Assembly: GCF_000024905.1 (NCBI RefSeq)
Contig: NC_013522.1
Location: forward strand, 434,001 to 498,000
DNA length: 64,000 nt
Reading direction: 5' to 3'
From: Thermanaerovibrio acidaminovorans DSM 6589
GTDB lineage: Bacteria; Synergistota; Synergistia; Synergistales; Synergistaceae
Position numbers and translations under genes: made by a program. The notes beneath the pieces are model-generated. The model was not told where the DNA came from, did not search any database, and saw only the letters and a program-made list of their open reading frames with translations. Positions 1 through 32,492 of the stretch are shown piece after piece (position 1 is the stretch's first letter; each line of letters starts with the position of its first letter).

Positions 1-2
1 AT

Positions 3-1355
3 CTGATAATAGCCGTCATGGGGGAGCAGGACGTGCTGGACCTGGCGGTGGCAAAGGCCAAGGAGTACCTGAGCAACCCCCCCTGGAGGCAGGGGCAGGA
101 TGGCGGGGAGTCCTACAAGCCCCGGAGCCTGGACGGGGCCCTCACGGTCATGCCGGAGGCCAACCTGGCGGTGATCTCCGTGGCGGGGCGCTACGCGGGG
201 GACGTGGCCATGGACTGCATAGCCAAGGACCTTAACGTGATGCTCTACTCGGACAACGTGCCCCTGGAGAAGGAGATAGAGGTCAAGCGGGCCGCGGCGG
301 AGAAGGGGCTCCTGGTGATGGGCCCTGACTGCGGCACGGTGGTGATCCGTGGGGTGGCCATAGGCATGGCCAACTCGTGCCCCACCGGCCCGGTGTCCAT
401 CGTGGCCGCCGCCGGCACGGGCCTTCAGGAGGTCCACGTGCAACTGGCCAGGCGGGGGGTCGGCACCCTCCACGGCATAGGCACCGGCGGCCGGGACGTC
501 AAGTCCCAGGTGGGGGGGATCATGGTGGAGATGGCCTCCCGGCTCCTCCTGGAGGACCACGAGGTCCAGGTGCTGGTGATAGTGGGCAAGCCCCCCGCAC
601 CGGAGGTGGAGGAGCGGATCCTCCATCTGGCCAGGGGTAGCTCCAAGCCGGTGGTGCTGGGCTTCGTCGGCGGCAAGGCCAAGGGGGACCAGCACCCGGT
701 CTACATCTGCCGGGAGCTGGAGGAGACCGCTGCGGTGGCCGCCGCCCTGGCCAAGGGGGAGGACGTGCCCCAGGTCCGTGCCGCCATGGATGCCCAGGTG
801 GAGGAGCTCAAGGCCCTGGCCAAGAGGATAGGCCCCAGGAAGGGGTACCTCAGGGGGCTCTACTCGGGCGGAACCCTCTGCTACGAGGCCCAGCTCATAG
901 CCCGGGACATACTGGGCCCCATCCATAGCAACACCCCCCTGGAGGAGCACCTTAAGCTTGAGGACAGCCTCAGGTCGGTGGAGCACACCATAGTGGACTT
1001 CGGCGAGGACGAGTTCACCCAGGGACGCCTGCACCCCATGATAGACGTGTCCCTCCGGGCCTCCCGTTTCCAGGAGGAGGTCAAGGACCCGGAGGTCGGG
1101 GTGGTGCTCTTCGATGTGGTGATCGGTTACGGCTGCCACCCGGATCCCGCCACCGGGCTGGTGGAGGGCATCCGGAAGGCCAAGGAGATATGCGGCGACC
1201 GGGTGGTCTTTGTGGCCTCCGTCTGCGGGACCCCCGACGACGTCCAGGACGCGGACAGGCAGAGGAGGATCCTGGAGGAGGCCGGTGTGGTGGTGATGGA
1301 CAGCAACGCCAAGGCCTCGCGGCTTGCGTCCTTCCTTCTGTCGCTGTCGGAGTAG
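3..1355 (+). CDS. fdrA: FdrA-type protein, oxamate carbamoyltransferase subunit (5' end cut by window)
   Basis: The frame is open to the left edge: codons for LIIAV precede the first in-window Met at 18, so the true start lies upstream and about 450 C-terminal residues are visible. FdrA proteins have a succinyl-CoA-synthetase-like fold. Typical segments here are GPDCGTVVIRGVAIGMAN, the glycine-rich GTGLQEVHVQLAR and GIGTGGRDVK. In E. coli FdrA works with YlbE and YlbF (AllFGH) in carbamoyl transfer from oxamate during anaerobic allantoin use. The next genes are YlbE-like, so a carbamoyl-transfer role in purine catabolism is inferred. The third partner (YlbF/DUF2877) and a carbamate kinase are not in the window and may lie upstream. 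Confidence 0.85.
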   Translation: MIIAVMGEQDVLDLAVAKAKEYLSNPPWRQGQDGGESYKPRSLDGALTVMPEANLAVISVAGRYAGDVAMDCIAKDLNVMLYSDNVPLEKEIEVKRAAAEKGLLVMGPDCGTVVIRGVAIGMANSCPTGPVSIVAAAGTGLQEVHVQLARRGVGTLHGIGTGGRDVKSQVGGIMVEMASRLLLEDHEVQVLVIVGKPPAPEVEERILHLARGSSKPVVLGFVGGKAKGDQHPVYICRELEETAAVAAALAKGEDVPQVRAAMDAQVEELKALAKRIGPRKGYLRGLYSGGTLCYEAQLIARDILGPIHSNTPLEEHLKLEDSLRSVEHTIVDFGEDEFTQGRLHPMIDVSLRASRFQEEVKDPEVGVVLFDVVIGYGCHPDPATGLVEGIRKAKEICGDRVVFVASVCGTPDDVQDADRQRRILEEAGVVVMDSNAKASRLASFLLSLSE

Positions 1356-1367
1356 GGGGTGAGGGGT

Positions 1368-1544
1368 TTGAACCAGAAGCTGAGGAGCCTTCTCAAGGAG
1401 GGGCCCCGGGCGGTGAACATTGGGGTGGAGCAGTTCGCCCAGGACCTGGCCGCCCAGGGGGTTAAGGTGGTTCAGATGGACTGGCGGCCCCCCCAGGCGG
1501 GGTCGGATCTCCTGTCCAAGCTGAGAAAGCTGAAGAGGCAGTAG
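1368..1544 (+). CDS. Small FdrA/YlbE-associated protein (detached YlbE N-terminal segment)
   Basis: A 58-residue protein with no membrane segment. TTG at 1368 is preferred because GGGGTGAGG lies just upstream; GTG at 1359 sits inside that ribosome-binding site. The segment NIGVEQFAQDLAAQGVKVVQ followed by MDWRPP resembles the N-terminal stretch (IG.E.FA..L..QGV.VV.VDWRPP) that I recall from longer single-chain YlbE/DUF1116 proteins. The following DUF1116 gene starts without it. The simplest reading is that the YlbE N-terminus is encoded as a separate subunit, 12 bases after fdrA and 48 before the DUF1116 gene. Function is inferred only from context and this resemblance. Confidence 0.65.
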   Translation: MNQKLRSLLKEGPRAVNIGVEQFAQDLAAQGVKVVQMDWRPPQAGSDLLSKLRKLKRQ

Positions 1545-1592: not shown

Positions 1593-2849
1593 ATGGTAGA
1601 CATCGACAAGGCGAACCAGGAGGCCCTATCGAGGCTTCTGTCCGCCCAGCCGGTCCTGGTGGACATGGGGCTGGCCAAGGACGTGGTGCCCGGGATGGGG
1701 GAGAGGACCCTGCTTCACGCGGGGCCTCCCATCACGTGGGAGAGGATGTCGGGCCCCATGCGGGGGGCGGTGATGGCCGCGTGCCTCTACGAGGGGTGGG
1801 CCTCCACCCCGGAGGAGGCGGTGGAGCTGGCCGCCAGCGGTGAGATAACCTTTGATCCCTGCCACCACCACAGCGCCGTGGGGCCCATGGCGGGGGTCAC
1901 CAGCCCCAACATGCCGGTCTTCGTCATTGAGAACAAGGACCGGGGGAACCGGGCGTACTGCAGCATGAACGAGGGGCTGGGCAAGGTGATGAGGATGGGT
2001 GCCTACGATGACGAGGTGATAGAGCGCCTCAAGTGGATGAGGTACACCCTTTACCCCAACCTTCATGCGGGGGTACGTAGGGCCTACGAGGTCCAGGGGG
2101 GCATCGACATCAAGAACATCATCGCCCAGGCGCTCCACATGGGGGACGAGATGCACAACCGCAACAAGGCGGGCACCAGCCTGTTCCTCCGGGCCATCGT
2201 CCCCTTCATGATCGAGGCGGCCCCCAACTGTAGGGACCTGGCGGAGGTGGTCCGGTTCATAGACAAGAACGATCACTTCTTCCTGAACCTGGCCATGGCG
2301 GCTGCCAAGGCCAGCACCGAGGCGGCCCACGACGTGGAGGGCTCATCTCTGGTGACCATAATGGCCAGGAACGGCACCGAGATGGGCATACAGGTGTCGG
2401 GACTGGGCAGGCGGTGGTTCACCTGTGAGGCGGCGCTGCCCGACGTGCTCCTGTTCCCGGGCTTCACCAAGGACGACGTGAACCGGGACATAGGGGACAG
2501 CGCCATAATGGAGACCCTGGGCATCGGCGGCTTCGCCCTGGCGGCGGCCCCCGCCATCGTCCAGTTCATCGGCGGCACGCCGGCGGACGCGGCCAAGTAC
2601 ACCCTGGAGATGTACGAGATAACCCTGGGGGAGAACAACGTCTACTCCATCCCGTCCCTCAACTTCCGGGGTACCCCCACGGGGATCGACGTCCTAAAGG
2701 TGGCGGAGACGGGCATAACCCCCGTGCTGGACACCGGGGCGGCCCACAAGGAGCCCGGCCGGGGCCAGGTTGGGGCTGGTATAGTGCGGATGCCCTCCGA
2801 GGCCTTCATAAAGGCGGCGGAGGCCTTCGTGGAGCGCTACGCGGAGTAG
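1593..2849 (+). CDS. ylbE: DUF1116 / YlbE-like protein, oxamate carbamoyltransferase subunit
   Basis: A 418-residue cytoplasmic protein of the DUF1116 (YlbE) family. Recognisable segments are LLHAGPPITWERMSGPMRGA near residue 40, CHHHSAVGPMAGVTSPNMPV near 95 and GTPTGIDVLKVAETGITPVL near the C-terminus. The start is ATG 1593 with GGGAGGGG about 10 bases upstream. In E. coli YlbE (AllG) acts with FdrA in the oxamate carbamoyltransferase complex. Here it follows fdrA and the small detached N-terminal-like protein in one operon. The family assignment is firm; the exact substrate in this organism is inferred. Confidence 0.85.
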   Translation: MVDIDKANQEALSRLLSAQPVLVDMGLAKDVVPGMGERTLLHAGPPITWERMSGPMRGAVMAACLYEGWASTPEEAVELAASGEITFDPCHHHSAVGPMAGVTSPNMPVFVIENKDRGNRAYCSMNEGLGKVMRMGAYDDEVIERLKWMRYTLYPNLHAGVRRAYEVQGGIDIKNIIAQALHMGDEMHNRNKAGTSLFLRAIVPFMIEAAPNCRDLAEVVRFIDKNDHFFLNLAMAAAKASTEAAHDVEGSSLVTIMARNGTEMGIQVSGLGRRWFTCEAALPDVLLFPGFTKDDVNRDIGDSAIMETLGIGGFALAAAPAIVQFIGGTPADAAKYTLEMYEITLGENNVYSIPSLNFRGTPTGIDVLKVAETGITPVLDTGAAHKEPGRGQVGAGIVRMPSEAFIKAAEAFVERYAE

Positions 2850-2891: not shown

Positions 2892-3695
2892 ATGAGCAGC
2901 AACTGGGAGCTTAAGAACTGGGGCAACATCAAGGTTTACGACCTGACCATACCCATCAGCCACCTGACCCCCGCTTGGCCCACCTACGAGCCACTTCAGG
3001 TGAAGTTCTTCAAGCGGTTGGCCCCCAACGGCGCCAACGGACAGCTTCTGACCCACTCCAACCACGTGGGCACCCACCTGGACGGGCCCCTTCACTTCTG
3101 CACCCACGGCTGCGACATCGCCAGCCTGGAGCTGAAGGACTTCCTGGTGGGCCCCGGCGTGGTGGTGGACATCAGCGACATAGCGGAGGACTACGGGATC
3201 TACACCAGCAAGGACATTGAGGAGCGGGCGGAGATCCACGACGGGGACATACTGATCATCAACACCGGCTACCACCGCTACGGCTGGGATCAGCCCGAGG
3301 CTGACGAGGTGCGCTACATGGTGATGCACCCGGGGCCCACCAACGAGTTCGCCCAGTGGTGCAAGAAGCGCAAGATAAAGTGGATCGGCGTGGACTGCGG
3401 CTCCGCGGATCATCCCATGAACACCAAGATCCGGGAGTGGATGCCCTATCACGCCAAGATGGCGGACAAGCACCTGAGGGAGAAGTACGGCAAGGGGCTG
3501 GACGACTTCTTCCCCCCCGAGGACTATCAGCTGATGCACATCGACCTGTTCCCCCACAACATCATCCACGCCGAGTGCCTTGGGGGGGACATCGACCTCC
3601 TCTCCGGGAAGAGGGTCACCATCGGCTGCTTCCCCTGGCGCTTTGAGGGCGGCGAGTCCTGCATAAGCCGCATCGTTGCCTTCGCGGAGGAGTAG
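2892..3695 (+). CDS. Cyclase-family metal-dependent hydrolase (kynurenine formamidase-like fold)
   Basis: A 267-residue protein of the putative-cyclase family (PF04199). The metal-binding signature HVGTHLDGPLHF is present near residues 57-68, with a second His/Asp-rich segment (GVDCGSADHPMN) in the middle. The start at ATG 2892 follows AAAGGAGGAGACG, one of the strongest ribosome-binding sites in the window. Family members hydrolyse formamides or amides such as N-formylkynurenine or isatin. As the last gene before a terminator in the FdrA/YlbE operon it probably opens an amide or ureide intermediate, but the substrate cannot be read from sequence. It could also be a generic amidase. Confidence 0.85.
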   Translation: MSSNWELKNWGNIKVYDLTIPISHLTPAWPTYEPLQVKFFKRLAPNGANGQLLTHSNHVGTHLDGPLHFCTHGCDIASLELKDFLVGPGVVVDISDIAEDYGIYTSKDIEERAEIHDGDILIINTGYHRYGWDQPEADEVRYMVMHPGPTNEFAQWCKKRKIKWIGVDCGSADHPMNTKIREWMPYHAKMADKHLREKYGKGLDDFFPPEDYQLMHIDLFPHNIIHAECLGGDIDLLSGKRVTIGCFPWRFEGGESCISRIVAFAEE

Positions 3696-3707
3696 GGCTG
3701 TTGACTT

Positions 3708-3740
3708 GGGGCGTTCCTTATTTGGAGCGCCCCATTTTTT
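3708..3740 (+). terminator. Rho-independent terminator after the FdrA/YlbE/cyclase operon
   Basis: A 10-bp stem (GGGGCGTTCC with GGAGCGCCCC, one G-U pair) with a 6-base loop is followed directly by TTTTTT. It lies only 21 bases before the next gene, so expression of the downstream hydroxylase genes would need read-through or a promoter hidden in the same stretch. TTGACT at 3701 has no matching -10. Confidence 0.75.
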
Positions 3741-3760
3741 GAAGATGGGGGTGTGACCTT

Positions 3761-4615
3761 ATGCTTTCCTTTGAGCTGGAGAGGCCCTCCACGCTGGCGG
3801 AGGCCATGAAGCTCCTAGAGAGGGAGGGGGCCTGGGCCAAGAACGGGGGCACGGACCTCCTGGTCTGGATGAAGAAGCACGCCATACAGCCCAAGCTGGT
3901 GGTGGACCTTAGCCTCATAGAGGAGCTCCACCGGATCCACTTCGACCCCAAGGAGGGGCTCACCGTGGGGGCCTGCGTGACCCTGAACGACCTGGCGAAC
4001 TTCAAGGAGGCCCGGGAGCTGTACCCCGCCCTGGTGGAGGCCGCCATGTCCCACTCGGACCACATCATAAGGAACAAGGCAACCTACGTGGGGAACCTTT
4101 GCTCCTCGGTCCCCTCGGGGGACATGATCCCCCCCACGGTGGTGTACCAGGGGGTGCTTCACTTGGCGTCCCACCATGGTGAGAGGGCGGTGCCCATTAT
4201 GGAGTTCATAGTGGGTCCCCGGCGCAACGTCCTCAAGCCCGGCGAGGTGGTCACCCGGGTGACCCTGCCGGTGCCCGATGGTCCCTCCGCGGGCAGGTAC
4301 ATAAAGCTTGGCCGCCGGAACGCCCTTGACCTGGCCCAGGTGGGTGTGGCCTGCGTGGTAACCGACGGTCCCTCCGGCAGGAGGTACCGCCTGTCCTACG
4401 GGGCGGTCTCCCCGGTGCCGGTGAGGGCCACCAAGGCGGAGGCGCTCTTGGAGGGGGTCAAGTCCCCCGATGGGGCCCTGCTGGAGAGGGTGGCGGAGGA
4501 GGCGAAGCTCTCGGTGAACCCCATAACGGACGTCAGGGCCAGCCGGGAGTACCGGCTCTCCATGGTGGGGGAGCTCACCAAGAGGGCCATAGCCGAGTGT
4601 CTCGAGAGGCTTTAG
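3761..4615 (+). CDS. xdhB: Molybdenum hydroxylase FAD-binding subunit (xanthine dehydrogenase type)
   Basis: A 284-residue medium subunit of the CoxM/XdhB family. Near the N-terminus KNGGTDLLVWMKK corresponds to the AGGTDL FAD-pyrophosphate loop. IRNKATYVGNLCSSVPSGD near residues 106-124 is the second FAD loop (the usual R.ATVGGN..  .... SGD pattern). It passes electrons from the [2Fe-2S] clusters to FAD and on to NAD or another acceptor. The start is ATG 3761. The [2Fe-2S] and Mo subunits follow with gaps of 13 and 15 bases, giving a complete three-chain enzyme. The substrate is most likely hypoxanthine/xanthine given the surrounding purine genes; nicotinate- or CO-dehydrogenase-like relatives share this architecture. 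Confidence 0.9.
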   Translation: MLSFELERPSTLAEAMKLLEREGAWAKNGGTDLLVWMKKHAIQPKLVVDLSLIEELHRIHFDPKEGLTVGACVTLNDLANFKEARELYPALVEAAMSHSDHIIRNKATYVGNLCSSVPSGDMIPPTVVYQGVLHLASHHGERAVPIMEFIVGPRRNVLKPGEVVTRVTLPVPDGPSAGRYIKLGRRNALDLAQVGVACVVTDGPSGRRYRLSYGAVSPVPVRATKAEALLEGVKSPDGALLERVAEEAKLSVNPITDVRASREYRLSMVGELTKRAIAECLERL

Positions 4616-4628
4616 GGGGGCTGTTTGG

Positions 4629-5108
4629 ATGTCCAAGAAGACCATAAGTTTCACCTTGAACGGTCGTCCCGTCAGCATGGACGTGGAGCCCAGGACCACT
4701 CTCCTTCGGGCCTTGAGGGATTACGGGGTGACCAGCGTCAAGAGGGGTTGCGAGGAGGGCGAGTGCGGCACCTGCACCGTCATCCTGGACGGCAAGCTTC
4801 AGAAGTCCTGCATGGTGCTGGCCCAGGAGGCGGAGGGCCGGGAGGTGCTCACCGCCGAGGGGCTGGTCTCCCGGGATGGCAAGCTGCACCCGGTCCAGCA
4901 GGCTTTCATAGAGGAGGGGGCCATCCAGTGCGGGTTCTGCACCCCCGGCATGGTCCTGGCGGTATATGACCTTCTGAAGCGCAATCCTAACCCCACCGAC
5001 GAGGAGATGAAGGTGGCCCTGTCGGGGAACCTGTGCCGCTGCACCGGCTACGAGGGGATCTTCAGGGCGGTTCGGAAGGCAGCGAAGCTTATGTCCGCTG
5101 GGGCATGA
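4629..5108 (+). CDS. xdhC: Molybdenum hydroxylase [2Fe-2S] subunit
   Basis: A 159-residue small subunit. The N-terminal plant-ferredoxin-type cluster ligands are in GCEEGECGTCTVILDG with the fourth Cys in KSCMVL. The second cluster, in the helical C-terminal domain, uses CGFCTPGM and NLCRCTGYEG. All eight Cys are present. Length is normal for the family. Start ATG 4629 lies just after the stop of the FAD subunit. It relays electrons from the molybdopterin site to FAD. Confidence 0.93.
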   Translation: MSKKTISFTLNGRPVSMDVEPRTTLLRALRDYGVTSVKRGCEEGECGTCTVILDGKLQKSCMVLAQEAEGREVLTAEGLVSRDGKLHPVQQAFIEEGAIQCGFCTPGMVLAVYDLLKRNPNPTDEEMKVALSGNLCRCTGYEGIFRAVRKAAKLMSAGA

Positions 5109-5123
5109 AGGGGGTGAGCGTCC

Positions 5124-7541
5124 ATGAAGCAGACCGTTACCAACCATGGGGTTGGAAAGTGGGTAACCAGGAAGTTCGATGAGGAGAAGGCGGCGGGCAC
5201 CTTGAGGTACGCGGATGACCTTAGGTTCGGGCCGGAGCTTCTGCACGCCCGGGCGGCCCGGTCCACCATAGCCCACGGGGAGATCGTTTCCATAGACGTC
5301 TCGGAGGCCATGAAGGTCCCCGGGGTGGTGAAGGTCATAACCGGCGACATGTTCGTTCACCACTTCGGCCTCTACCTGCAGGATCGGACGCCCCTGGCGG
5401 TGGGCAAGGTCCGCTATGTGGGGGAGCCCATCGCCCTGGTGGTGGCGGAGACCGAGGAGGCGGCGGAGGAGGGCATGCTGAAGGTGAAGGCCACCTACCG
5501 GGAGCTTCCTGCGGTGTTCGACCCGGTGAAGGCCGCCACGGACAACTCGGTCCTGGTGCATCCGGAGCTGGGCAGCTACGCCCACGTGCCCTACCTTACC
5601 CCCCAGCCGGGGACCAACATAGCCAACTGGTTCAGGATTCGCCGGGGCGACGTGGACAAGGCCTTCGCGGAGTGCGAGCACATCGTGGAGGAGGCGGTAA
5701 CCTGCCCCCAGATAGCCCATGGATTCCTTGAGCCCCACTGTTGCATATGCCAGGAGGACCCCGCCACGGGCAACCTGACCATATGGAGCTCCGCCCAGTC
5801 CGCCTTCGCGGTGCGGGAGATAATAGCCAAGGGGTTGGGCTATCCGCTTCACAAGATAAGGGTCATAGCTCCCCCCATCGGTGGCGGCTTCGGGGGCAAG
5901 GCGGGAATGACCATCGAGGCCATGTGTCTGGCCGCCGCCATGGATCCGGACATCAAGGGCCGTCCGGTGAAGCTCCACATCCCCCGGGAGGAGGTGCTCA
6001 TATCCTCCTGGGTGCGCCAGGGCTACGTGGCCAAGATAAAGCTGGGGATAGACAAGGATGGCAAGATCCAAGCCATAAAGAACACCTTCTTCTTCGATAC
6101 CGGCGTGTCGGCGGAGTACGGGGCCAACCCGGTCCGGAGCGCGGGCTACACCTCCACGGGCTGTTACTACGTCCCCAACGTGTGGACCGACAGCTACGCG
6201 GTGTACACCAACAAGCCCTTCGGTGGCGCCTATAGGGGCTTCGGCCTTCCGGAGCTGATGGGGGCCATGGAGGTGGTGATCGACATAGCGGCCAACAAGA
6301 TAGGCATGGACCCCATCGAGTTCAGGCTCAAGAACATGCTGAAGCCCGGGCTTCCCACCTGCACCGGCATGCCCATGCACAACCACGCGCTGGACAAGAT
6401 AGTGTCCAAGGTGGTGGACAAGATAAGGCTCCGGGAGAAGGAGGAGCCCAAGCGGCCCGGCTGGAAGAGGGGCAAGGGCTTCGCCCTGGCCATAAAGGCC
6501 CCCGCCATGCCGGCGGACGCGGCCAGCAGCGCCATAGTTAAGGTGCTGGGGGACGGCAACGTGGAGGTCCTGGCGGCCACCATGGACATGGGGCAGGGGG
6601 CCTACACCGCCTACGCCCAGATGGTGTGCGAGGAGCTGGGGGTCCCCATCGAGAGCGTGAAGTGTTACTTCCCGGACACCCAGAGCCACCCCTACGACTG
6701 GCAGACCGTGGCCAGCCGCTCCTGCTGGTCCATGGGGATGGCGGTCAAGCGGGCGGCGGTGGACGCCCGGGAGAAGATCCTGGCCCTGTTCTCCCGCTAC
6801 TGGCAGGTGGTGCCGGAGGAGATAACCATCGAGCACGGGGTGGTCAAGTGCCGCAAGCTGGGCAAGGCGGAGAAGCTGGACGAGAGGATCCAGAACGGCT
6901 TCCACATGCCCGACGGGGAGCACGTGGGAGGCCCCGTTATCGGCACCGGCACCTTCGTTCCCCCCGACGTGGTCTACCCGGATCCGGAGACCGGCCAGTC
7001 CCCCAAGAGCGTGGTACACTTCACCGTGGGTGCCGTTGGGATCGACATCGAGGTTGACCCCGCCACCGGCGAGGTGTGCGTCAACAACGTGGTGGCGGGC
7101 TACGACGTGGGCAAGGCCATAAGCCCCATCAACGTCCGGGGCCAGATAGAGGGGGGCACCATCCAGGGCATATCCGCCGGGCTCCTGGAGGGGATGTACT
7201 ACGACGAGCACGGCAAGCTACTGACCCCGGACTTCACGGACTACAAGATGAGCACCACCATGGACCTGCCGGATAACATGGAGATCTTCTGGGAGGAGAC
7301 CCCGGAGGAGCTGTCCCCCTACGGGAACCGGGGCATAGGGGAGCACTCCATGATATCCCCCGCCCCCGCCATAGACAACGCCCTGTACAACGCCCTGGGA
7401 GTCAGGATCCACAGCTACCCCTTCTCCAAGGAGCGGGTCTACAAGGCGGTCCAGATGGCCAAGGCGGGGGAGACGGACCTCTGGGAGTACCCCTACGTGC
7501 AGGAGCAGAACTACCGCAAGGCCATAAAGGAGTGGCTCTAG
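5124..7541 (+). CDS. xdhA: Molybdenum hydroxylase molybdopterin-binding subunit
   Basis: An 805-residue large subunit of the xanthine dehydrogenase family, starting directly with the aldehyde-oxidase/xanthine-dehydrogenase domain. Molybdopterin-binding signatures are IGGGFGGKAG (about residue 251) and GGAYRGFGLPE. MDMGQGAYT forms a cofactor loop, and GNRGIGEHSM near the C-terminus carries the catalytic Glu. No frame interruption is seen, so no selenocysteine codon is suggested. It forms the catalytic subunit with the two preceding genes. A GC hairpin follows the stop. Purine hydroxylation (hypoxanthine to xanthine or urate, or the reverse) is inferred from context. Confidence 0.92.
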   Translation: MKQTVTNHGVGKWVTRKFDEEKAAGTLRYADDLRFGPELLHARAARSTIAHGEIVSIDVSEAMKVPGVVKVITGDMFVHHFGLYLQDRTPLAVGKVRYVGEPIALVVAETEEAAEEGMLKVKATYRELPAVFDPVKAATDNSVLVHPELGSYAHVPYLTPQPGTNIANWFRIRRGDVDKAFAECEHIVEEAVTCPQIAHGFLEPHCCICQEDPATGNLTIWSSAQSAFAVREIIAKGLGYPLHKIRVIAPPIGGGFGGKAGMTIEAMCLAAAMDPDIKGRPVKLHIPREEVLISSWVRQGYVAKIKLGIDKDGKIQAIKNTFFFDTGVSAEYGANPVRSAGYTSTGCYYVPNVWTDSYAVYTNKPFGGAYRGFGLPELMGAMEVVIDIAANKIGMDPIEFRLKNMLKPGLPTCTGMPMHNHALDKIVSKVVDKIRLREKEEPKRPGWKRGKGFALAIKAPAMPADAASSAIVKVLGDGNVEVLAATMDMGQGAYTAYAQMVCEELGVPIESVKCYFPDTQSHPYDWQTVASRSCWSMGMAVKRAAVDAREKILALFSRYWQVVPEEITIEHGVVKCRKLGKAEKLDERIQNGFHMPDGEHVGGPVIGTGTFVPPDVVYPDPETGQSPKSVVHFTVGAVGIDIEVDPATGEVCVNNVVAGYDVGKAISPINVRGQIEGGTIQGISAGLLEGMYYDEHGKLLTPDFTDYKMSTTMDLPDNMEIFWEETPEELSPYGNRGIGEHSMISPAPAIDNALYNALGVRIHSYPFSKERVYKAVQMAKAGETDLWEYPYVQEQNYRKAIKEWL

Positions 7542-7557
7542 TCCAACCCGTTCGCCC

Positions 7558-7578
7558 GGGGCGGGGTCTCCCCGCCCC
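7558..7578 (+). terminator. GC-rich hairpin after the first hydroxylase operon
   Basis: Perfect 9-bp arms (GGGGCGGGG and CCCCGCCCC) with a 3-base loop lie 17 bases past the stop. The following bases are AGGTTTAGGG, so there is only a weak T-tract. It may be a weak terminator or an mRNA 3'-end stabiliser. Confidence 0.5.
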
Positions 7579-7696
7579 AGGTTTAGGGCCTATCTATTCT
7601 GAAAGTTCAGGGTGGTGATGAACCGGGGTGCGGCTTCGTTGGCTTTATGCGCTTTTGGTCGATAGTGGTAGAGGACGAGAGAGGGGGTAAAAGGTA

Positions 7697-9108: not shown

Positions 9109-9137
9109 GGGGCGGGGCTTGGTCCCCGCCCCTTTTT
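9109..9137. terminator. Bidirectional terminator between permease and CNNM/CorC gene
   Basis: Arms GGGGCGGGG and CCCCGCCCC are separated by a 6-base loop and followed by TTTTT on the + strand. The stem overlaps the stop of the convergent minus-strand gene, so it probably ends both transcripts. Confidence 0.8.
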
Positions 9138-10425: not shown

Positions 10426-10668
10426 CTATTTACCTTCCTTTCGTGGGGTCCCCGGCGGGGGCCCTTCTTGAGTTTGAAGTTTACCATCCAGCCCTGGTTG
10501 TCCCAAGGGGAGGCTCAGCGGATGGTTTACCGGGGTGATGGTCTTTAGAAACCATGGTCTGTGGGGTGATGGGGCGAATCAAGTTAGGATTCAGTGGGTC
10601 TTTGACTGGGTTTTCGTCCCCCTTGGCCCCCTTGGGATGGGATCCCTTCGGAGTTGGCCTTGGGGAGA

Positions 10669-10740: not shown

Positions 10741-10752
10741 CGGGGTGATCCC

Positions 10753-11388: not shown

Positions 11389-11407
11389 CCCCTTGGAGGT
11401 GTTCAAA

Positions 11408-21075: not shown

Positions 21076-21109
21076 TGACACCATAAAGTCCATGGGGAGG
21101 ATGATACCA

Positions 21110-23394: not shown

Positions 23395-23483
23395 TTAACA
23401 AAGAACATGTCAGGTGCTGACGTTTGGTTTGATGGTAGAATAGTTAGGGTACGTTGCCGCAGCCTAGAATGGGAGGTGTCTTT

Positions 23484-24833: not shown

Positions 24834-24851
24834 CCGGGAGGTATGAAAGCG

Positions 24852-26237
24852 ATGGGAACCGTCTTCAAGGGGGGCGTCATAGCCCTGCCCGATGGGCCTG
24901 TGAGGGCCGACCTAAGGATAGAGGGGGAGCTGGTCCACTCCATAGGGGAGGACCTGGAAAGGGACGGGGATATGGTCGTCCCTTGTCAGGACCGGATCCT
25001 CCTGCCCGGTGGGGTGGATCCCCATACCCACTTTGACCTCCCCGCCGGGGAGTTCAGGACCGCCGACGACTTCGCCACCGGCACCGCCGCGGCCCTGGCG
25101 GGGGGCACCACCACCATAGTGGACTACGCCACCCAGTTCAGGGGCCAGAGCTTGAGGCAGGGGGTGGAGGAGTGGCATAGGCTCTCCATTGGCAAGTGCC
25201 ACTGCGACTACGCTTTCCACCTGGCGGTGACCGACTGGAACGACGGGATAGAGGCGGAGGTCCCCCAGATCGTGGCGGAGGGCATCCCCTCGTTCAAGAT
25301 GTACATGGCCTACAAGGGGCTGTTGCAGCTGGACGACGGCTCCATAATGCGGATGATGGAGATCCTGCGGGACCTGGGGGGGCTCCTGTGCCTGCACTGC
25401 GAGAATGGGGATCTGGTTCACTGGCTCAGTCAGCAGCTGGCCCAGGAAGGCAAGCTCTCCGCCCGGTACCACCCGGCTAGCCGCCCCGGCTTCGTGGAGT
25501 CCGAGGCGGTCTTCCGGGCCCTCACCATGGCCAGGGCGGTCCAGGCCCCGCTCTACCTGGTCCACTTGAGCGCCGGAGAGTCCATGGACCACGTGAACCT
25601 CTTCCGGCAAAGGGGCTCCACGGTCTTCGCGGAGACCTGCATACAGTATCTGTTGCTCAACGAGGGACGCTACTCCCTGCCCCAGGGGGACGCAATGGCC
25701 TACGTTTGTTCTCCCCCCCTGAGGTCCCAGGCGGATTCGGATCGCCTCTGGGAGGAGCTCCGCAGGGGCAACGTGGACGTGGTGGCCACGGATCACTGCT
25801 CGTTCAATCTAATGGGGCACAAGGACAGGGGCATGAACGATTTCAGAAGGATCCCCAACGGGCTTCCGGGGGTGGAGAACCGGCTGCCGTTGCTCTACTC
25901 CGAGGGGGTCGCCAAGGGGCGCATATCCCTTGAGACGTTCGTGAAGGTCACGGCTTGCAACCCCGCCAAGATTTTCGGCCTCTACCCCATGAAGGGTACA
26001 CTGGTTCCCGGCAGCCACGGGGACGTGGTGGTGTTCAACCCCCGGTACCGTTGGACCGTGAGGGCCGCAAGGCAGCTTCAGAACGTGGACTACAACCCCT
26101 ACGAGGGTTGGGAGGTGACCGGATCGGTGGAGTCGGTTTTCCTTAGGGGAGCTGAGGTCTTCCGGGATGGTCGGATCTTGGGTCAGGAACCCGCGGGCCG
26201 TTACCTCAGGCGCCGCGGGCGGAAGGAGGAAGCGTAG
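24852..26237 (+). CDS. hyuA: D-hydantoinase / dihydropyrimidinase-family amidohydrolase
   Basis: A 461-residue binuclear-zinc amidohydrolase. LLPGGVDPHTHFDLPAGEF carries the HTH metal pair, IPSFKMYMAYKGL the carbamylated Lys, and VATDHCSFN the later Asp/His site. ATG 24852 is chosen over 24843 because GGGAGGT ends immediately before 24843 and is correctly spaced from 24852; the length then equals that of E. coli HyuA. HyuA is part of the anaerobic urate cluster and opens a hydantoin- or dihydropyrimidine-like ring. The stop is directly followed by the next start. Confidence 0.92.
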   Translation: MGTVFKGGVIALPDGPVRADLRIEGELVHSIGEDLERDGDMVVPCQDRILLPGGVDPHTHFDLPAGEFRTADDFATGTAAALAGGTTTIVDYATQFRGQSLRQGVEEWHRLSIGKCHCDYAFHLAVTDWNDGIEAEVPQIVAEGIPSFKMYMAYKGLLQLDDGSIMRMMEILRDLGGLLCLHCENGDLVHWLSQQLAQEGKLSARYHPASRPGFVESEAVFRALTMARAVQAPLYLVHLSAGESMDHVNLFRQRGSTVFAETCIQYLLLNEGRYSLPQGDAMAYVCSPPLRSQADSDRLWEELRRGNVDVVATDHCSFNLMGHKDRGMNDFRRIPNGLPGVENRLPLLYSEGVAKGRISLETFVKVTACNPAKIFGLYPMKGTLVPGSHGDVVVFNPRYRWTVRAARQLQNVDYNPYEGWEVTGSVESVFLRGAEVFRDGRILGQEPAGRYLRRRGRKEEA

Positions 26238-28805
26238 ATGTACGTGTTCAAGGTCAACGGAGTGGAGCATCAGGAGGAGCGGGACAGGAACCTCTTGGAG
26301 TATCTGAGGAAGGAGCTTCAGATAACCTCCGCCAAGGAGGGCTGCGGCGAGGGGGCCTGCGGAACCTGCATGGTGTTGGTGGACGGGAAGAAGCACCGGG
26401 CGTGCCTCCTCAAGCTCTCCCAGCTGGACGGCAAGGAGGTAATCACCGTGGAGGGCCTGTCCGAGCGGGAGAAGCAGGTCTATACCTGGGCCTTCGCCAG
26501 CACCGGGGCGGTCCAGTGCGGCTTCTGCATCCCCGGCATGGTGATAAGCGCCAAGGCCCTGCTGGATCAGAACCTGAACCCCACCAGGAAGGATATCAAG
26601 GAGGCCATAAGGGGCAACATATGCCGCTGCACCGGCTACGTTAAGATCGAGGACGCCATCGAGAAGGCCGCCTGGGCCTTCCGGGAGAACTACGTGCCGG
26701 TGGAGGAGGACAGGGCCTGGAAGGTTGGTGAGGCCATGCCCCGGGTTGACGCCAAGGACAAGGTGCTGGGGGTGGCCAAGTTCGTGGACGACCTGTCCCT
26801 GCCGGGCATGCTCTACGGGGCGGTGCTCCGCTCTCCGGTCCCCCGGGGGCTGGTGAAGAAGATCGACGTCTCCGAGGCCAAGGCCATGGAAGGGGTCGAG
26901 GCGGTCATAACCTGGAGAGACATCCCGGGCAAGAGGATCGTGGGACACCTGGTACAGGACTGGCCGGTCCTGGTGGCGGAGGGGGAGGAGACCCGCTATG
27001 TGGGGGATGCCCTGGCGCTGGTGGCCGCCCGGGACGTGCACATCGCCCGGGAGGCGGTGAAGCGCATAAAGGTGGATATAGAGGAGCTCAAGCCCCTGCT
27101 TACCCCCGAGGAGGCCCTGGCCCCTGATGCGCCTAAGATCCATCCCTGGGGCAACAAGGTGGAGGTCAAGACCCACGTGAAGCGGGGCGACGTGGACGAG
27201 GCGCTGGCCAAGTCCGCCCACGTGGTGACCCGGGTCTACAAGACCCAGCGGGTGGACCACGCCTTCATGGAGCCCGAGTCCGCCCTGGCGGAGGTGGTGG
27301 ACGACGGGATAGTGGTATACACCGGCGGCCAGGGGGTCTACGACGAGAACCGGCAGATAAGCGCCATGCTGGGCATCCCCGCTGAAAAGGTGCGCTGCAT
27401 CACCGCCATGGTAGGTGGCGGTTTCGGCGGCAAGGAGGACATGTCGGTGCAGCATCATGCGGCCCTGATGGCGTGGATCACCAAGAAGCCCGTTAAGCTC
27501 ACCTGGACCAGGGAGGAGAGCCTCAGGGTCCATCCCAAGCGGCACCCCATGACCATCGAGATAACCTCCGGCTGCGACGAGGAGGGACGCCTAACCGCCC
27601 ACAGGATCCGCATAACTTCCGATACCGGGGCCTACTCGTCCCTGGGCGGTCCGGTCCTTCAGAGGGCTTGCACCCACGCGGGCGGTCCCTACAAGGTGCC
27701 CAACATAGACATAGAGGGAGTTGGGGTTTACACCAACAACCCCCCCTGCGGCGCCTTCCGGGGCTTCGGGGTGACCCAGTCCGCCTTCGCGGTGGAGGGC
27801 AACCTCAACCTTCTGGCGGAGAAGGTGGGCATTTCTTACTGGGAGATTCGCTGGCGGAACGCCATAGAGCCCGGGGACGTGATGAGCAATGGCCAGATCG
27901 CTGGTCCCGATGTGCGTTTGAAAGAGACGCTGATGGCCGCCAAGGAGGCCTTCGAGTCAAGCCCCTACGCGGGGATAGCCTGCGGCATGAAGAACAGCGG
28001 CCTGGGCGTGGGGGTTCCCGACGTGTCCCGGGTTAGGCTGGAGGTCCGCAACGGGGTGGTCCACATCTACACCAGCGCGGCCTGCATGGGGCAGGGCATA
28101 GCCACCATGACCACCCAGATAGTTAGCCACGTGACCGGGCTTCCGGTCTCGAAGATCAAGCACATGCCGGCGGACACCAAGCTGACCCCCGACGCGGGGA
28201 CCAGCACCGCATCCCGTCAGACGGTCTTCACCGGTGAGGCCACCAGGAGGTGCGCGGAGCTCCTGAGGCAGGATCTATTGGATGCGGGTTCCCTGGAGGC
28301 CCTGGAGGGGAAGGACTATTACCAGGAGTTCGATTTCAAGAGTGATCCCATGGGGTCCGACAAGCCCAATCCGGTGAGCCACATAGCCTATGGCTACGCC
28401 ACCCACGTGGTGATCCTTAACCAGGAGGGCAAGCTGGAGAGGTACGTGGCCTGTCACGATTCGGGGCAGCCTATAAACATCAAGTCCATGGAGGGCCAGA
28501 TCGAGGGCGGCGTAGTGATGGGAATGGGATACGCCCTCACCGAGGAGTTCCCCACCCCCGGAGGCTACCCGGTGAAGAAGTACGGCACCCTGGGGCTCTG
28601 GAGGGCCACCGACGTGCCCCCCATAGAGGTGAAGCTGTGCTATGCCAAGGGCGGGGATGTGGTTTTCGGCGCTAAGGGTGTCGGGGAGATCTCCCTGGTC
28701 CCTCCCGCTCCGGCCATAGCCCTGGCCTACAAGCGGTTCGACGGGGTTGAGAGGACCGAGCTGCCCCTGGTTGGAACTCCCTACGATAAGAGGAAGCAGG
28801 CTTAA
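26238..28805 (+). CDS. xdhD: XdhD-type molybdenum hydroxylase: fused [2Fe-2S] and molybdopterin domains
   Basis: An 855-residue fusion. Residues 1-150 are the double [2Fe-2S] domain (CGEGACGTCMVLVDG, CGFCIPGM, NICRCTGYV). The rest is the Mo-binding large subunit, with VGGGFGGKEDMS, CGAFRGFGVTQ and GAKGVGEISLVPPAP (catalytic Glu). The same order of domains is found in E. coli XdhD, a member of the urate gene cluster. It needs a separate FAD partner, possibly the protein at 31140 or the subunit at 3761. Reductive dehydroxylation of urate to xanthine or the reverse is a reasonable inference. Confidence 0.9.
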   Translation: MYVFKVNGVEHQEERDRNLLEYLRKELQITSAKEGCGEGACGTCMVLVDGKKHRACLLKLSQLDGKEVITVEGLSEREKQVYTWAFASTGAVQCGFCIPGMVISAKALLDQNLNPTRKDIKEAIRGNICRCTGYVKIEDAIEKAAWAFRENYVPVEEDRAWKVGEAMPRVDAKDKVLGVAKFVDDLSLPGMLYGAVLRSPVPRGLVKKIDVSEAKAMEGVEAVITWRDIPGKRIVGHLVQDWPVLVAEGEETRYVGDALALVAARDVHIAREAVKRIKVDIEELKPLLTPEEALAPDAPKIHPWGNKVEVKTHVKRGDVDEALAKSAHVVTRVYKTQRVDHAFMEPESALAEVVDDGIVVYTGGQGVYDENRQISAMLGIPAEKVRCITAMVGGGFGGKEDMSVQHHAALMAWITKKPVKLTWTREESLRVHPKRHPMTIEITSGCDEEGRLTAHRIRITSDTGAYSSLGGPVLQRACTHAGGPYKVPNIDIEGVGVYTNNPPCGAFRGFGVTQSAFAVEGNLNLLAEKVGISYWEIRWRNAIEPGDVMSNGQIAGPDVRLKETLMAAKEAFESSPYAGIACGMKNSGLGVGVPDVSRVRLEVRNGVVHIYTSAACMGQGIATMTTQIVSHVTGLPVSKIKHMPADTKLTPDAGTSTASRQTVFTGEATRRCAELLRQDLLDAGSLEALEGKDYYQEFDFKSDPMGSDKPNPVSHIAYGYATHVVILNQEGKLERYVACHDSGQPINIKSMEGQIEGGVVMGMGYALTEEFPTPGGYPVKKYGTLGLWRATDVPPIEVKLCYAKGGDVVFGAKGVGEISLVPPAPAIALAYKRFDGVERTELPLVGTPYDKRKQA

Positions 28806-28865: not shown

Positions 28866-31127
28866 ATGAAGTGCAAGGTTGTTGGGACCTCGGTACCGCG
28901 GAAGGATGGCATCGAGAAGGCCACCGGGAAGGCTCCGTTCGTGGCGGACATGCGGGTGCCCGGCTGCTGGGAGGGGGCGGTGATAGGCTCCCCGGTGCCT
29001 CACGGGATACTCAAGGGCTTTGAGAAGGACCCGTCATTCGACTGGTCGAAGGTGGTGTTCCTCACCGCCAAGGACCTGAAGGGGAAGAATTTCGTCCACA
29101 TGATCCGGGACGACTTCCCCATCCTGGCCGAGGAGCGGATCACCTACGCCACCCAGGGGCTGGCTTTGGTGGCCGCCCCGGACGAGGAGACCCTGAAGGG
29201 GGCCCTCAAGGCGGTGAAGCCCATAATAGAGCCCCTCACCCCGGTGCTCTCCATCGAGGACTCCCTGACCAAGGTGGCGGTCATCTGGGGGGAGGACAAC
29301 ATCCTGGACGAGTACCGGATCGACCGGGGGGACCTGGAGAAGGGCTTCGCCGAGGCGGACCTGATCGTGGAGGGCACCTATCGGACCGGTCTCCACGAGC
29401 ACGTTTACCTGGAGACCCAGGGCATGATGGCCATTCCCAAGGAGGACGGCACCCTGGAGGTGGTGGGCTCCATGCAGTGCCCCTACTACGTGCACGGTGC
29501 CCTGGTCCAGTCCCTGGGCTGGGAGCCCGAGAGGGTAAGGGTGCGCCAGGCTGCCACCGGCGGTGGCTTTGGCGGCAAGGAGGACTTCCCCTCCGCCATA
29601 GCCCTGTGGGTGGCCAACCTGTCCCTGGCCAGTGGCAAGCCGGTGAGGCTCATCTACGACAGGTCCGATGACCTGAAGGGCACCCCCAAGCGGCACCCCT
29701 CCAGGACCAGGATCAAGGCGGGGGTCAAGAAGGACGGGACCCTGACGGCCCTTCAGATAGAGTTCATCCTGGACGGCGGGGCCTTCACCACCATGAGCCG
29801 GGTGGTTCTCCAGCGGGGAACCCTGCACGCTCACGGGTGTTATCGGGTGCCCAACGTGTCCATCCACTCCATGGCGGTGGCCACCAACATGGTCCCCAGC
29901 GGGGCCTATCGAGGTTTCGGTGCTCCCCAGTCCCTGTTTGCAATCGAGAGGCACATGGACAAGATAGCGGACTTGTTGGGCATGGACCCCCTTGATGTGA
30001 GGCTCAAGAACGTGCTCAAGGCCGGGGACTACATGCCCTGCGGCCAGGAGCTCAAGTTGCCGGTCTTCGCCGAGGATGTGCTCCTCAAGGCAGCGGAGCT
30101 GTCGGACTACCGGCGCAAGAGGGCGGAGTACGCCAAGGGGACCGGTCGGGTGCGCAGGGGAATTGGGATCAGCTTGGCCATGCACGGCGGGGGCTTCACC
30201 GGGGCTGGGGAGACCAACATGGGCACGATGGTCAAGATCGACTTCGACGGGGAGCGGTTCAACGTCCACGCCAGCAGCACCGACATGGGTCAGGGCATAG
30301 CCACCGTTCACCCCATGATCGCCGCCGAGGCCCTGCACGTGCCCTACGATGTGGTGTTCAGCCCCAGGCCGGACACCAGCGTTACCCCCAACAGCGGCCC
30401 CACCGTGGCGTCCAGGAGCACCATGTACGTTGGTCGGGTGGTCCAGGAGGCGGCAAAGAACGTCATCGCCGAGCTGGGGGATTTCCTGAAGGCCAAACAC
30501 GGCCAGGCCACCTTCTCCGATGGCTTCTTTGAGACCCCCAACGGAAGGTTCTCCGTCCTGGAGGCCGCCAAGGCCTGCTTCGGCGAGAGGGGAGAGTTCA
30601 AGGTGCTGGGCACCCTGCCGCCGGGCTGCACCGGCGAGTGGGATCAGGATGCCTTCCGGGGAGAGGCCTACAAGGACTACTCCTGGATCGCCCAGGCCAT
30701 AGAGGTGGAGGTGGACACGGACACCTTCGAGGTCCAGCCGGTTAAGGCTACCGTGGTGGCGGAGATAGGCAAGGCGGTGCACCCGGTCCTGGTGGAGGGG
30801 CAGGTTCATGGCGGGCTCCTTCAGGCCATAGGCTGGAGCCACATAGAGGACATGACCCTCACTTCCGAGGGGCACATATCGGCGGAGCACCTGAACGCCT
30901 ATCTGATCCCCACCACCATCGACACCCCAGAGTGGAACGTCGAGATTTTGGAGCCCGCCACCTGTCAAGTGGGTCCCCATGGTGCCAAGGGCCTTGGGGA
31001 GTTGCCCATGGATGGAGGGGCTCCTGCCTTCGTGGCGGCGGTCCAAAGCGCGGTTGGGGTGTTCGGTACCGAGGTGCCGCTGACCGGGGAGAAGCTTTTC
31101 AAGCTCCTTGAGGAGAAGGGCTGCTAG
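28866..31127 (+). CDS. Molybdenum hydroxylase molybdopterin-binding subunit, second set
   Basis: A 753-residue large subunit without a [2Fe-2S] domain. Signatures are TGGGFGGKEDFPSA, SGAYRGFGAPQSL, TDMGQGIATVHP and the catalytic Glu in GAKGLGELPMDGG. ATG 28866 follows GGGAGGGGATC. The next gene supplies both [2Fe-2S] and FAD domains, so these two can form a complete heterodimeric enzyme like the XdhA/XdhB organisation of Rhodobacter. The substrate is a purine or related N-heterocycle by context. Confidence 0.9.
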   Translation: MKCKVVGTSVPRKDGIEKATGKAPFVADMRVPGCWEGAVIGSPVPHGILKGFEKDPSFDWSKVVFLTAKDLKGKNFVHMIRDDFPILAEERITYATQGLALVAAPDEETLKGALKAVKPIIEPLTPVLSIEDSLTKVAVIWGEDNILDEYRIDRGDLEKGFAEADLIVEGTYRTGLHEHVYLETQGMMAIPKEDGTLEVVGSMQCPYYVHGALVQSLGWEPERVRVRQAATGGGFGGKEDFPSAIALWVANLSLASGKPVRLIYDRSDDLKGTPKRHPSRTRIKAGVKKDGTLTALQIEFILDGGAFTTMSRVVLQRGTLHAHGCYRVPNVSIHSMAVATNMVPSGAYRGFGAPQSLFAIERHMDKIADLLGMDPLDVRLKNVLKAGDYMPCGQELKLPVFAEDVLLKAAELSDYRRKRAEYAKGTGRVRRGIGISLAMHGGGFTGAGETNMGTMVKIDFDGERFNVHASSTDMGQGIATVHPMIAAEALHVPYDVVFSPRPDTSVTPNSGPTVASRSTMYVGRVVQEAAKNVIAELGDFLKAKHGQATFSDGFFETPNGRFSVLEAAKACFGERGEFKVLGTLPPGCTGEWDQDAFRGEAYKDYSWIAQAIEVEVDTDTFEVQPVKATVVAEIGKAVHPVLVEGQVHGGLLQAIGWSHIEDMTLTSEGHISAEHLNAYLIPTTIDTPEWNVEILEPATCQVGPHGAKGLGELPMDGGAPAFVAAVQSAVGVFGTEVPLTGEKLFKLLEEKGC

Positions 31128-31139
31128 GAGGTTAAGGCC

Positions 31140-32492
31140 ATGAGGATACAGATGACCGTAAACGGCAAGGTGATGGAGGCGGATGTTCACCCCCTGCGAC
31201 CCCTGCTTCGGGTCCTCCGGGAGGACCTGGGGCTCACGGGCACCAAGGAGGGGTGCGGCGAGGGTGAGTGTGGTGCCTGCTCCATAATGATGGACGGGCT
31301 GCTGGTGAACGCCTGTTGTGTCCCCGCCATCCAGGCGGCGGGCAGCGAGATATTCACCATAGAGGGTCTTGGGGACGACGCCAACCCGGACCAGCTCCAG
31401 GTGTCCTTTGTGGACGAGGGGGCGGTCCACTGCGGCTTCTGTACCCCGGGGATGATCATGGCCTCCCGGGCCCTGCTGGAGGAGGTGCCGGAGCCCACCC
31501 TGGACCAGGTCCGGGTGGCCCTGTCGGGGAACCTGTGCCGCTGCACCGGCTACGAGAAGATCTACCGGGCGGTGGACAAGGCGGTCAAGCTGGGCTACAC
31601 CAAGACCTTCAAGCCCAGGACCAACCGGTGCGACAAGCGGGAGCCCCAGTTCTCCAAAGAGGAGGAGGGCAGGTACTTCTCCCCCAGGAGCCTCAGCGAG
31701 GCCCTGAATGTGCTGGCGGAGCACCCGGATTGCAGGTTGCTGGCGGGGGGCACAGACATACTGCCGGACATCAAGAACGGCAAGGGGGAGCCCCGCAAGG
31801 TGCTGAACCTATTCGGCGTGCCGGAGCTCCACGGGGTGGAGCTGGAGGGGGACGTGATCCGCATCAAGGCCTGCACCACCAACGGGGAGATAATACGCAG
31901 CTCCCTCTGCAGGGAGCACCTGCCGGCCCTGGTGGAGGCCTCCGCCAGGAGCGGCGCCCCGGCCATCCAGAACCGGGCCACCGTGGGAGGCAACTTGGCC
32001 AACGCCTCCGGGGCGGCGGACCTGCCGGTGATCCTCCTGGCCCTGGATGCCCGGGTGCGCCTCGCCTCCGCCAAGGGAACCAGGACCATGACCCTTAAGG
32101 AGTTCATGCCCAGCTACAGGAAGAACGCCTGTGAGGCGGGGGAGATCCTGGAGTCCATCGAGATCCCCGTGCCCGCCAGGGGGTCCAGGCAGCGCTACTT
32201 CAAGAGGGGGTCCCGCAAGGCCCTGACCCTCTCTCGGGTGAGCCTGGCCATGTACCTGGAGGAGGAGGACGGGGTGGTGAAGACCTTCCGTATGGCGGCG
32301 GGGAGCATGTCCCCCCTGCCCATGAGGCTTCACAAGACCGAGGAGGCGGTGATCGGAAAGCCCCTTTCCCAGGTGGTGGAGCTGGCCTCCAAGGCGGCCT
32401 ACGACGAGGTGAATCCCAGGAAGAGCCCCTCCTACCGGAAGAGGATAACCTCCAACCTGGTGCGCCGGTTCTTCGAGGAGCTTCAGGCCTAG
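31140..32492 (+). CDS. Fused [2Fe-2S]-FAD subunit of molybdenum hydroxylase
   Basis: A 450-residue fusion. Residues 1-155 hold both [2Fe-2S] clusters (CGEGECGACSIMMDG, CGFCTPGM, NLCRCTGYEK). Residues 175-450 are the FAD-binding domain, with LLAGGTDILPDIKNG and QNRATVGGNLANASGAAD. It begins 12 bases after the Mo subunit, so the pair forms one enzyme. The fusion differs from the separate FAD and FeS chains of the first set (3761-5108) and from the FeS-Mo fusion at 26238, showing three subunit designs within one island. Confidence 0.92.
   Translation: MRIQMTVNGKVMEADVHPLRPLLRVLREDLGLTGTKEGCGEGECGACSIMMDGLLVNACCVPAIQAAGSEIFTIEGLGDDANPDQLQVSFVDEGAVHCGFCTPGMIMASRALLEEVPEPTLDQVRVALSGNLCRCTGYEKIYRAVDKAVKLGYTKTFKPRTNRCDKREPQFSKEEEGRYFSPRSLSEALNVLAEHPDCRLLAGGTDILPDIKNGKGEPRKVLNLFGVPELHGVELEGDVIRIKACTTNGEIIRSSLCREHLPALVEASARSGAPAIQNRATVGGNLANASGAADLPVILLALDARVRLASAKGTRTMTLKEFMPSYRKNACEAGEILESIEIPVPARGSRQRYFKRGSRKALTLSRVSLAMYLEEEDGVVKTFRMAAGSMSPLPMRLHKTEEAVIGKPLSQVVELASKAAYDEVNPRKSPSYRKRITSNLVRRFFEELQA

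Follow-up and report, generated by a model that had tools for sequence, protein, structure and literature searches.

Aerobes that degrade pyrimidine bases oxidatively use uracil dehydrogenase, barbiturase and ureidomalonase, a route that PMC3758960 credits to Soong and co-workers. This oxidative barbiturate route, with its AtzD-family barbiturase, is considered rare, with a few known bacterial cases (PMC3758960). In E. coli, AllFGH serves as the oxamic transcarbamylase of anaerobic allantoin use, yielding carbamoyl phosphate and oxamate by phosphorolysis of oxalurate (PMC11326118). The reductive urate pathway, known from biochemistry in E. coli and C. difficile, leads from urate through yanthine, UMH/5UDU, diureidopropionate, albizziin and diaminopropionate to pyruvate (PMC12507026). 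The locus analyzed here belongs to Thermanaerovibrio acidaminovorans, of which strain Su883T is a moderately thermophilic member of the Synergistota that ferments amino acids and can live in co-culture with methanogens (PMC3035242). The window, a stretch of 64,000 nucleotides, corresponds to bases 434001-498000 of the single contig of 1,848,474 bp that makes up the genome. Its first 32 kb had been read from the sequence alone as one purine-catabolism island. This island is two modules side by side, a predicted pyrimidine operon (module A) and a urate cluster (module B). Judged from sequence, module A probably encodes an anaerobic, energy-conserving oxidative pyrimidine pathway, standing beside a reductive urate pathway with adenine salvage in module B.

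Families were assigned from profile bit scores compared with curated (NCBIfam) cut-offs, with Pfam domains for the rest. Searches beyond the window were made one gene family at a time; negative coordinates lie left of the window, and a genome coordinate equals 434000 plus the window coordinate. Comparisons were made with 188 Synergistota genomes, with a second scan of one-per-species genomes (80 loci, 76 of them non-Synergistota) and with a urate control set of 20 Synergistota SsnA loci. G numbers designate genomes and L numbers loci in these sets.

Separation of the two modules

Module A spans approximately -2967..9091, starting about 3 kb left of the window, and module B follows at 10654-32492. 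An unrelated CNNM/hemolysin-type membrane protein, encoded on the minus strand (9136..10425), stands between them. The modules are directly adjacent and run in the same direction in all three genomes of this genus. Among the genomes examined this adjacency is confined to the genus, and the other Synergistota genera examined have no urate genes near module A. The distance from A to B is about 70 kb in G124 and about 440 kb in G015, and the two lie on separate contigs in G166. None of AllF, AllG, the cyclase, CaiB, CN-hydrolase, amidase and CodA occurs in any of the 20 Synergistota urate loci, and none of SsnA, YgfK, DpaL and Ade in any of the 76 module A loci outside Synergistota.

These counts and distances bear directly on the idea of one purine or urate pathway over the full 32 kb, in which AllFGH would act on urate-derived ureido intermediates and the extra molybdenum hydroxylase (Mo-hydroxylase) on a purine. 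Such a pathway would fit the adjacency and shared direction within the genus. It would also fit the PucR-family regulator encoded divergently upstream of module A (-4805..-3159, minus strand; PF07905, 104 bits) and the NCS2_A permease of module A, whose xanthine-permease score (257 bits) exceeds its uracil-permease score (129 bits), both below cut-off. However, the two gene sets do not mix outside this setting, and the reductive urate pathway has its own carbamoyltransferase, with no need of AllFGH, CaiB or malonate enzymes (PMC12507026). A single purine route for all 32 kb is rejected in view of this separability, and we consider it unlikely that the module A enzymes work on purine-derived substrates. 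The complete import-to-ammonia route for purines claimed from the sequence alone thus gives way to two routes side by side, with module A linked to cytosine and malonate-decarboxylating genes. This corrects a tempting mis-annotation, in which AllFGH beside urate genes is equated with urate catabolism.

Module A genes and the proposed pathway from uracil

The genes of module A follow one another on the plus strand in the order CN-hydrolase, CaiB-type CoA-transferase, AllH, AllF, a small open reading frame (ORF), AllG, a PF04199 cyclase-family hydrolase, a three-subunit Mo-hydroxylase and an NCS2 permease. The CN-hydrolase (-2967..-2080; CN_hydrolase, 148 bits) and the CaiB-type CoA-transferase (-2074..-884; CoA_transf_3, 456 bits) precede AllH (PF11392, formerly YlbF/DUF2877; -887..-204; 88 bits, over cut-off). 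The sequence-only reading had pointed to the left of the window for ylbF/DUF2877, and AllH was found directly there. Its stop codon overlaps the start of AllF (FdrA), a subunit of the AllFGH-type transcarbamoylase. AllF, AllG and AllH are all encoded together. The FdrA protein reported for the window is present, but its gene starts outside at -204 and extends to 1355; the truncated window part (1..1355) scores 384 bits to FdrA model NF004760 (cut-off 433). The small ORF of about 58 residues (1368..1544) is homologous to a segment that other phyla carry as an extension at the N-terminus of AllG, and its homologues appear as ORFs of 63-79 residues or as AllG extensions in L036, L041, L043, L100 and L111. 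The second transcarbamoylase subunit, AllG (YlbE; 1593..2849), scores 335 bits to PF06545, over cut-off, and shares 47% identity with E. coli AllG across 415 residues.

The cyclase-family metallohydrolase (2892..3695; PF04199, 120 bits) is the proposed barbiturate ring opener. Its motif HVGTHLDGPLH fits the HxG[T/A]HxDxPxH metal motif of isatin hydrolase (PMC6117287). In a Foldseek search with a model of this protein, the best matches were metal-dependent hydrolases, KynB and isatin hydrolases. The Mo-hydroxylase consists of an FAD subunit (3761..4615; XdhB-type, 194 bits), a [2Fe-2S] subunit (4629..5108; XdhC-type, 196 bits) and a molybdopterin subunit (5124..7541; XdhA, 463 bits), the last proposed to hydroxylate uracil (or thymine). 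The molybdopterin subunit falls under every equivalog cut-off tried, and the closest solved structures are 4-hydroxybenzoyl-CoA reductase and the nicotine- and quinoline-type hydroxylases. The operon ends with the NCS2 permease (7697..9091), identified by TM8/TM10 alignment (transmembrane helices 8 and 10) as carrying UraA-type glutamates and proposed as the uracil importer. A hairpin followed by TTTTTT (3707..3734, plus strand) lies between the cyclase and Mo-hydroxylase genes. It is terminator-like and a possible attenuator inside module A; promoter- and terminator-like sites in the region occur at chance level, hairpin-T sites being no commoner than in shuffles.

The reactions, their order and their substrates are all inferred from this gene context. 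The NCS2 permease would take up uracil, and the Mo-hydroxylase would oxidize it at C6 to barbiturate, or thymine to 5-methylbarbiturate. The metal-dependent PF04199 hydrolase would then open the barbiturate ring to give ureidomalonate (HOOC-CH2-CO-NH-CO-NH2), which is oxalurate lengthened by one carbon. AllFGH, as the E. coli enzyme does with oxalurate, would use phosphate to split ureidomalonate into malonamate and carbamoyl phosphate, from which carbamate kinase (ArcC) would form ATP. The CN-hydrolase, or an amidase in other phyla, would release NH3 from malonamate, and the CaiB-type transferase would convert the resulting malonate to malonyl-CoA. A Na+-pumping decarboxylase of the MmdAB type would complete the route to acetyl-CoA. 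Methylmalonyl-CoA decarboxylase also takes malonyl-CoA as a substrate. With one proposed enzyme for each step, the chain from uracil to acetyl-CoA would have no missing enzyme, and the predicted balance is uracil + 4 H2O -> acetate + 2 CO2 + 2 NH3 + H2. With less assurance than the pyrimidine assignment itself, we still consider it rather likely that these genes constitute a new anaerobic pyrimidine-base fermentation in at least ten phyla, the 'malonurate transcarbamoylase pathway', in which a PF04199 enzyme replaces barbiturase, AllFGH acts on ureidomalonate, and the cell gains one ATP and a Na+ gradient from each uracil.

Distribution, operon variants and alternative substrates

The pyrimidine reading draws on the observed gene content, conservation, operon composition, co-occurrence, permease motif and metal motif. 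AllG is present in 20 of the 188 Synergistota genomes, and in 19 of these 20 the operon is of the module A type so far as the contigs let it be seen. Synergistota neighborhoods of 7-20 kb hold a common module A gene set, with AllF, AllG, the cyclase and the Mo-hydroxylase together in 14 of 17 AllG loci. All four were also present in 46 of the 76 non-Synergistota loci. Beyond Synergistota, module A occurs in at least ten other phyla; the groups represented include Thermotogota, Caldisericota, Bacteroidota, Cloacimonadota, Ignavibacteria, Elusimicrobia, Kiritimatiellae, Bdellovibrionales, Bacillota, Chloroflexota and Spirochaetota.

Some AllG loci depart from this pattern. In G164 (L048), AllG and AllF form a divergent pair (38-44% identical); a CN-hydrolase and what looks like a transporter are encoded there too, but neither cyclase nor Mo-hydroxylase, and this is probably another use of the transcarbamoylase. 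In L046 (8506-9764), from G175 of the same genus, AllG is broken into two frames, with residues 1-138 in one and 167-418 in the other, through a frameshift or a sequencing error. Three loci of one genus, g29 (L034, L035 and L037), encode after the Mo-hydroxylase genes a protein whose N-terminus, compared by eye, looks like the aldehyde:ferredoxin-oxidoreductase type.

A pyrimidine substrate is suggested by the genes that enter the operon elsewhere. CodB and CodA lie inside it in two Synergistota genera, in the order Mo-CodB-CodA-NCS2_A in G124 and Mo-NCS2_A-CodB-CodA in G143. The cytosine permeases score 493-494 bits (494 in G124; cut-off 326) and the cytosine deaminases 511 and 515 bits (511 in G124; cut-off 483). 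CodA over cut-off was found in 8 of 19 module A genomes versus 6 of 169 others (Fisher P=5e-6, kinship uncorrected). The permeases point the same way. The window permease has Glu at both the UraA E241 (TM8) and E290 (TM10) positions, and its TM10 segment SYTENIGLIGLTG pairs with UraA TYGENIGVMAITR in an alignment with 5xls. All operon NCS2 proteins readable at TM10 have Glu at the E290 position, within TYSENTG in other phyla; the urate-module permease has Gln in its TM10 motif, FGQNAGLVAMT. For divergent operon NCS2 proteins of other phyla, uracil permease is the best or nearly the best match, at 312-382 bits (cut-off 477) versus 205-233 for xanthine.

Malonate is suggested as an intermediate by decarboxylases beside the operon. 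In L087, MdcA (890 bits, cut-off 789) and the beta and gamma subunits, also over cut-off, lie downstream of AllF-AllG-cyclase, and malonate decarboxylase homologues occur in L088 and L089 as well. In L127, MmdA and MmdB of a Na+-pumping decarboxylase stand between the Mo-hydroxylase and AllF; in L120 they adjoin AllH-CodA-AllF-AllG. In the genome of T. acidaminovorans itself, MmdA (864 bits) and MmdB (over cut-off) are encoded less than 2 kb apart at 313-317 kb.

These neighbors also bear on a route through oxalurate, in which the Mo-hydroxylase and cyclase would produce oxalurate (for example from hydantoin by way of parabanate), AllFGH would yield oxamate, the CN-hydrolase oxalate and the CaiB-type transferase oxalyl-CoA. 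The known activity of E. coli AllFGH on oxalurate fits such a route, as does the score of the CaiB-type protein to CoA:oxalate CoA-transferase (369 bits, below cut-off); and the ring opened by the PF04199 relative isatin hydrolase is five-membered (PMC6117287). However, none of the 18 genomes searched has an oxalyl-CoA decarboxylase over the cut-off of 739 bits (best score 231), a natural source of parabanate is not obvious, and the operon elsewhere is accompanied by malonate-specific genes and contains cytosine genes. This combination disfavors the oxalurate route, to which we give even less credence than to the purine alternative.

The amide and carbamoyl phosphate steps proposed for the uracil route likewise have counterparts among the loci. 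A CN-hydrolase or amidase is present in 15 of 17 CaiB loci (P=4e-11, kinship uncorrected); CN-hydrolases and amidase-signature enzymes are two unrelated families with one role. In L100 and L111 a carbamate kinase gene, arcC, is part of the operon; a single stretch of L111 encodes AllH, AllF, AllG, CaiB, the cyclase, ArcC, a CN-hydrolase, the Mo-hydroxylase and an NCS2 permease. The sequence-only reading, which found no carbamate kinase in the visible part, had pointed to the left of the window. A carbamate kinase over cut-off does exist in this genome (421 bits, cut-off 358), located elsewhere, at genome coordinates 290375-291310, 144 kb upstream. Thirteen loci (L092, L093, L094, L106, L108, L112, L114, L116, L128, L132, L133, L144 and L145) have thiolase-like, DUF35-like and GNAT-like proteins beside AllG-cyclase operons. 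This trio is never found with CaiB (0/13 vs 17/47, P=0.012) and may substitute for the CaiB/amidase exit through another reaction.

The same chemistry might serve mainly another pyrimidine, such as thymine, cytosine directly or a modified base, with thymine leading through methylmalonate to propionyl-CoA. The MmdA of T. acidaminovorans belongs to the methylmalonyl-CoA decarboxylase family, in keeping with this possibility. In addition, a second Mo-hydroxylase and a cytosine-deaminase-like amidohydrolase (below cut-off) adjoin module A in L033, L036, L043, L070, L072, L073 and L113, a pairing that suggests a parallel entry for another pyrimidine. Malonate decarboxylase neighbors and uracil-type permeases nevertheless favor uracil, and a different principal substrate appears improbable. 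Thymine as an additional substrate feeding methylmalonyl-CoA decarboxylase is compatible with the uracil route. A cluster without AllFGH in L068 (G142; 5568-17593), containing a Mo-hydroxylase, CodA-like, MdcA-like, MmdA-like and MmdB-like proteins and an amidase, may be a variant in which ureidomalonate is split without formation of carbamoyl phosphate.

Several observations weigh against uracil and malonate as the substrate and intermediate of module A. The genome of T. acidaminovorans has no strong CodA match. Its module A permease, besides the higher xanthine score given above, has the SLC23A1 transporter as its closest solved relative overall. Its MmdA is under the curated cut-off, and its expected role is in propionate formation. 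Just 7 of the 76 wide loci hold MmdB or MdcA, L087-L089 are closely related, and 7/76 versus 0/20 in the urate control loci is alone not significant. The AlphaFold model of the cyclase (pLDDT 70, nine sequences) is of medium confidence and supports the fold class only. According to PMC3035242, neither malonate nor oxalate supports growth of T. acidaminovorans, which may reflect uptake only.

Module B and comparison with described systems

The genes at 10654-32492 support assignment as the published reductive urate cluster with adenine salvage. The expected genes named from the sequence alone are present and co-directional, with profile scores far above chance, and the idea of a urate cluster in an amino-acid fermenter holds for this part, which matches the set of PMC12507026; positions 1-9091 form an independent operon. 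Profiles also confirmed the three NCS2-superfamily (PF00860) permeases, the CDA-fold deaminase, AllF and AllG. All genes of module B lie on the plus strand. The first encodes a YheO-like PAS/HTH regulator (10654..11388; PF08348, PF13309). DpaL diaminopropionate ammonia-lyase (11342..12640; TIGR03528, 619 bits, cut-off 532), SsnA (12653..14005; NF005540, 646 bits, cut-off 444), YgfK (14024..17251; TIGR03315, 887 bits, cut-off 835) and YgeY (17276..18517; TIGR03526, 680 bits, cut-off 321) follow. The gene called ygeW (18543..19565) does encode a carbamoyltransferase (PF02729/PF00185) in the YgeW position, but the protein falls below the YgeW (183 vs 500 bits) and OTC equivalog cut-offs. Published pathway variants assign the YgeW role by PF00185 or UacY (PMC12507026).

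Downstream are an NCS2 xanthine/urate-type permease (19624..21048; pbuX, 416 bits, over cut-off), the CDA-fold deaminase (21092..21670; PF00383, 34 bits), adenine deaminase (21673..23394; TIGR01178, 487 bits, cut-off 472), an AzgA-like NCS2-superfamily permease (23454..24791; PF00860, 147 bits) and HyuA of the D-hydantoinase family (24843..26237; TIGR02033, 546 bits, cut-off 393). The protein taken for an XdhD-type fusion (26238..28805) is instead a Se-dependent xanthine dehydrogenase (XDH), an Fe-S and Mo fusion that scores 1317 bits to TIGR03311 (cut-off 830) and only 263 of the 1102 bits needed for the TIGR03313 Mo/Fe-S model. It adjoins a second, two-subunit XDH-type enzyme (28866..32492; Mo subunit 28866-31127, Fe-S+FAD subunit 31140-32492), so that the pair fills 26238-32492. 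The second enzyme matches pucD (430 bits) and xanthine_xdhA (308 bits), both below cut-off. Either of the two XDH-type enzymes is a candidate for reducing urate to yanthine, the XdhD role of the pathway. SsnA over cut-off was found in 47 of the 188 Synergistota genomes, and Synergistota are not among the phyla named in the SsnA network of PMC12507026.

The module A operon is widespread and apparently undescribed. The open-access literature searched contained only the classical route and no earlier account of this pathway; subscription papers and preprints were mostly outside that search, so a prior description is possible. If the proposal is correct, a non-homologous, ATP-yielding barbiturate route is spread over many anaerobic phyla and explains the recycling of nucleic-acid pyrimidines in anaerobic communities. 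It would also assign substrates to orphan families, namely PF04199 cyclases, AllFGH outside enterics and CaiB transferases, and unassigned XDH-like enzymes, which annotation can easily mistake for purine enzymes.

Among described systems, module B resembles the reductive urate pathway in its SsnA, YgfK, YgeY, DpaL, HyuA and XDH-type enzymes (PMC12507026); it differs in a carbamoyltransferase below the YgeW cut-off and in an Fe-S/Mo fusion that is a Se-dependent XDH rather than an E. coli-type XdhD. Module A would have pyrimidine base catabolism in common with the Rut, URC and Pyd pathways listed in PMC12507026, but not the enzymes, none of which was seen among the module A genes. Its cyclase shares a metal site and a predicted fold class with isatin hydrolase, a cyclic amidohydrolase (PMC6117287). 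Homologous AllF, AllG and AllH tie it to E. coli AllFGH, and here too an N-carbamoyl amide acid would be phosphorolyzed with carbamate kinase downstream; the E. coli genes accompany allantoin genes, whereas those of module A accompany a Mo-hydroxylase, cyclase, CaiB, CN-hydrolase and nucleobase permease. The classical oxidative route offers the same proposed sequence from uracil through barbiturate and ureidomalonate to malonate. However, the proposed ring opener here is a PF04199 metallohydrolase and not an AtzD/barbiturase-family enzyme; PF09663 was matched in 0 of 17 module A genomes, a weak negative given that no control genome matched either. Ureidomalonate would be phosphorolyzed to carbamoyl phosphate and not hydrolyzed to urea, and ATP would thereby be conserved. 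Furthermore, the organisms here are strict anaerobes, in which malonate is proposed to be coupled to CoA transfer and Na+-pumping decarboxylation.

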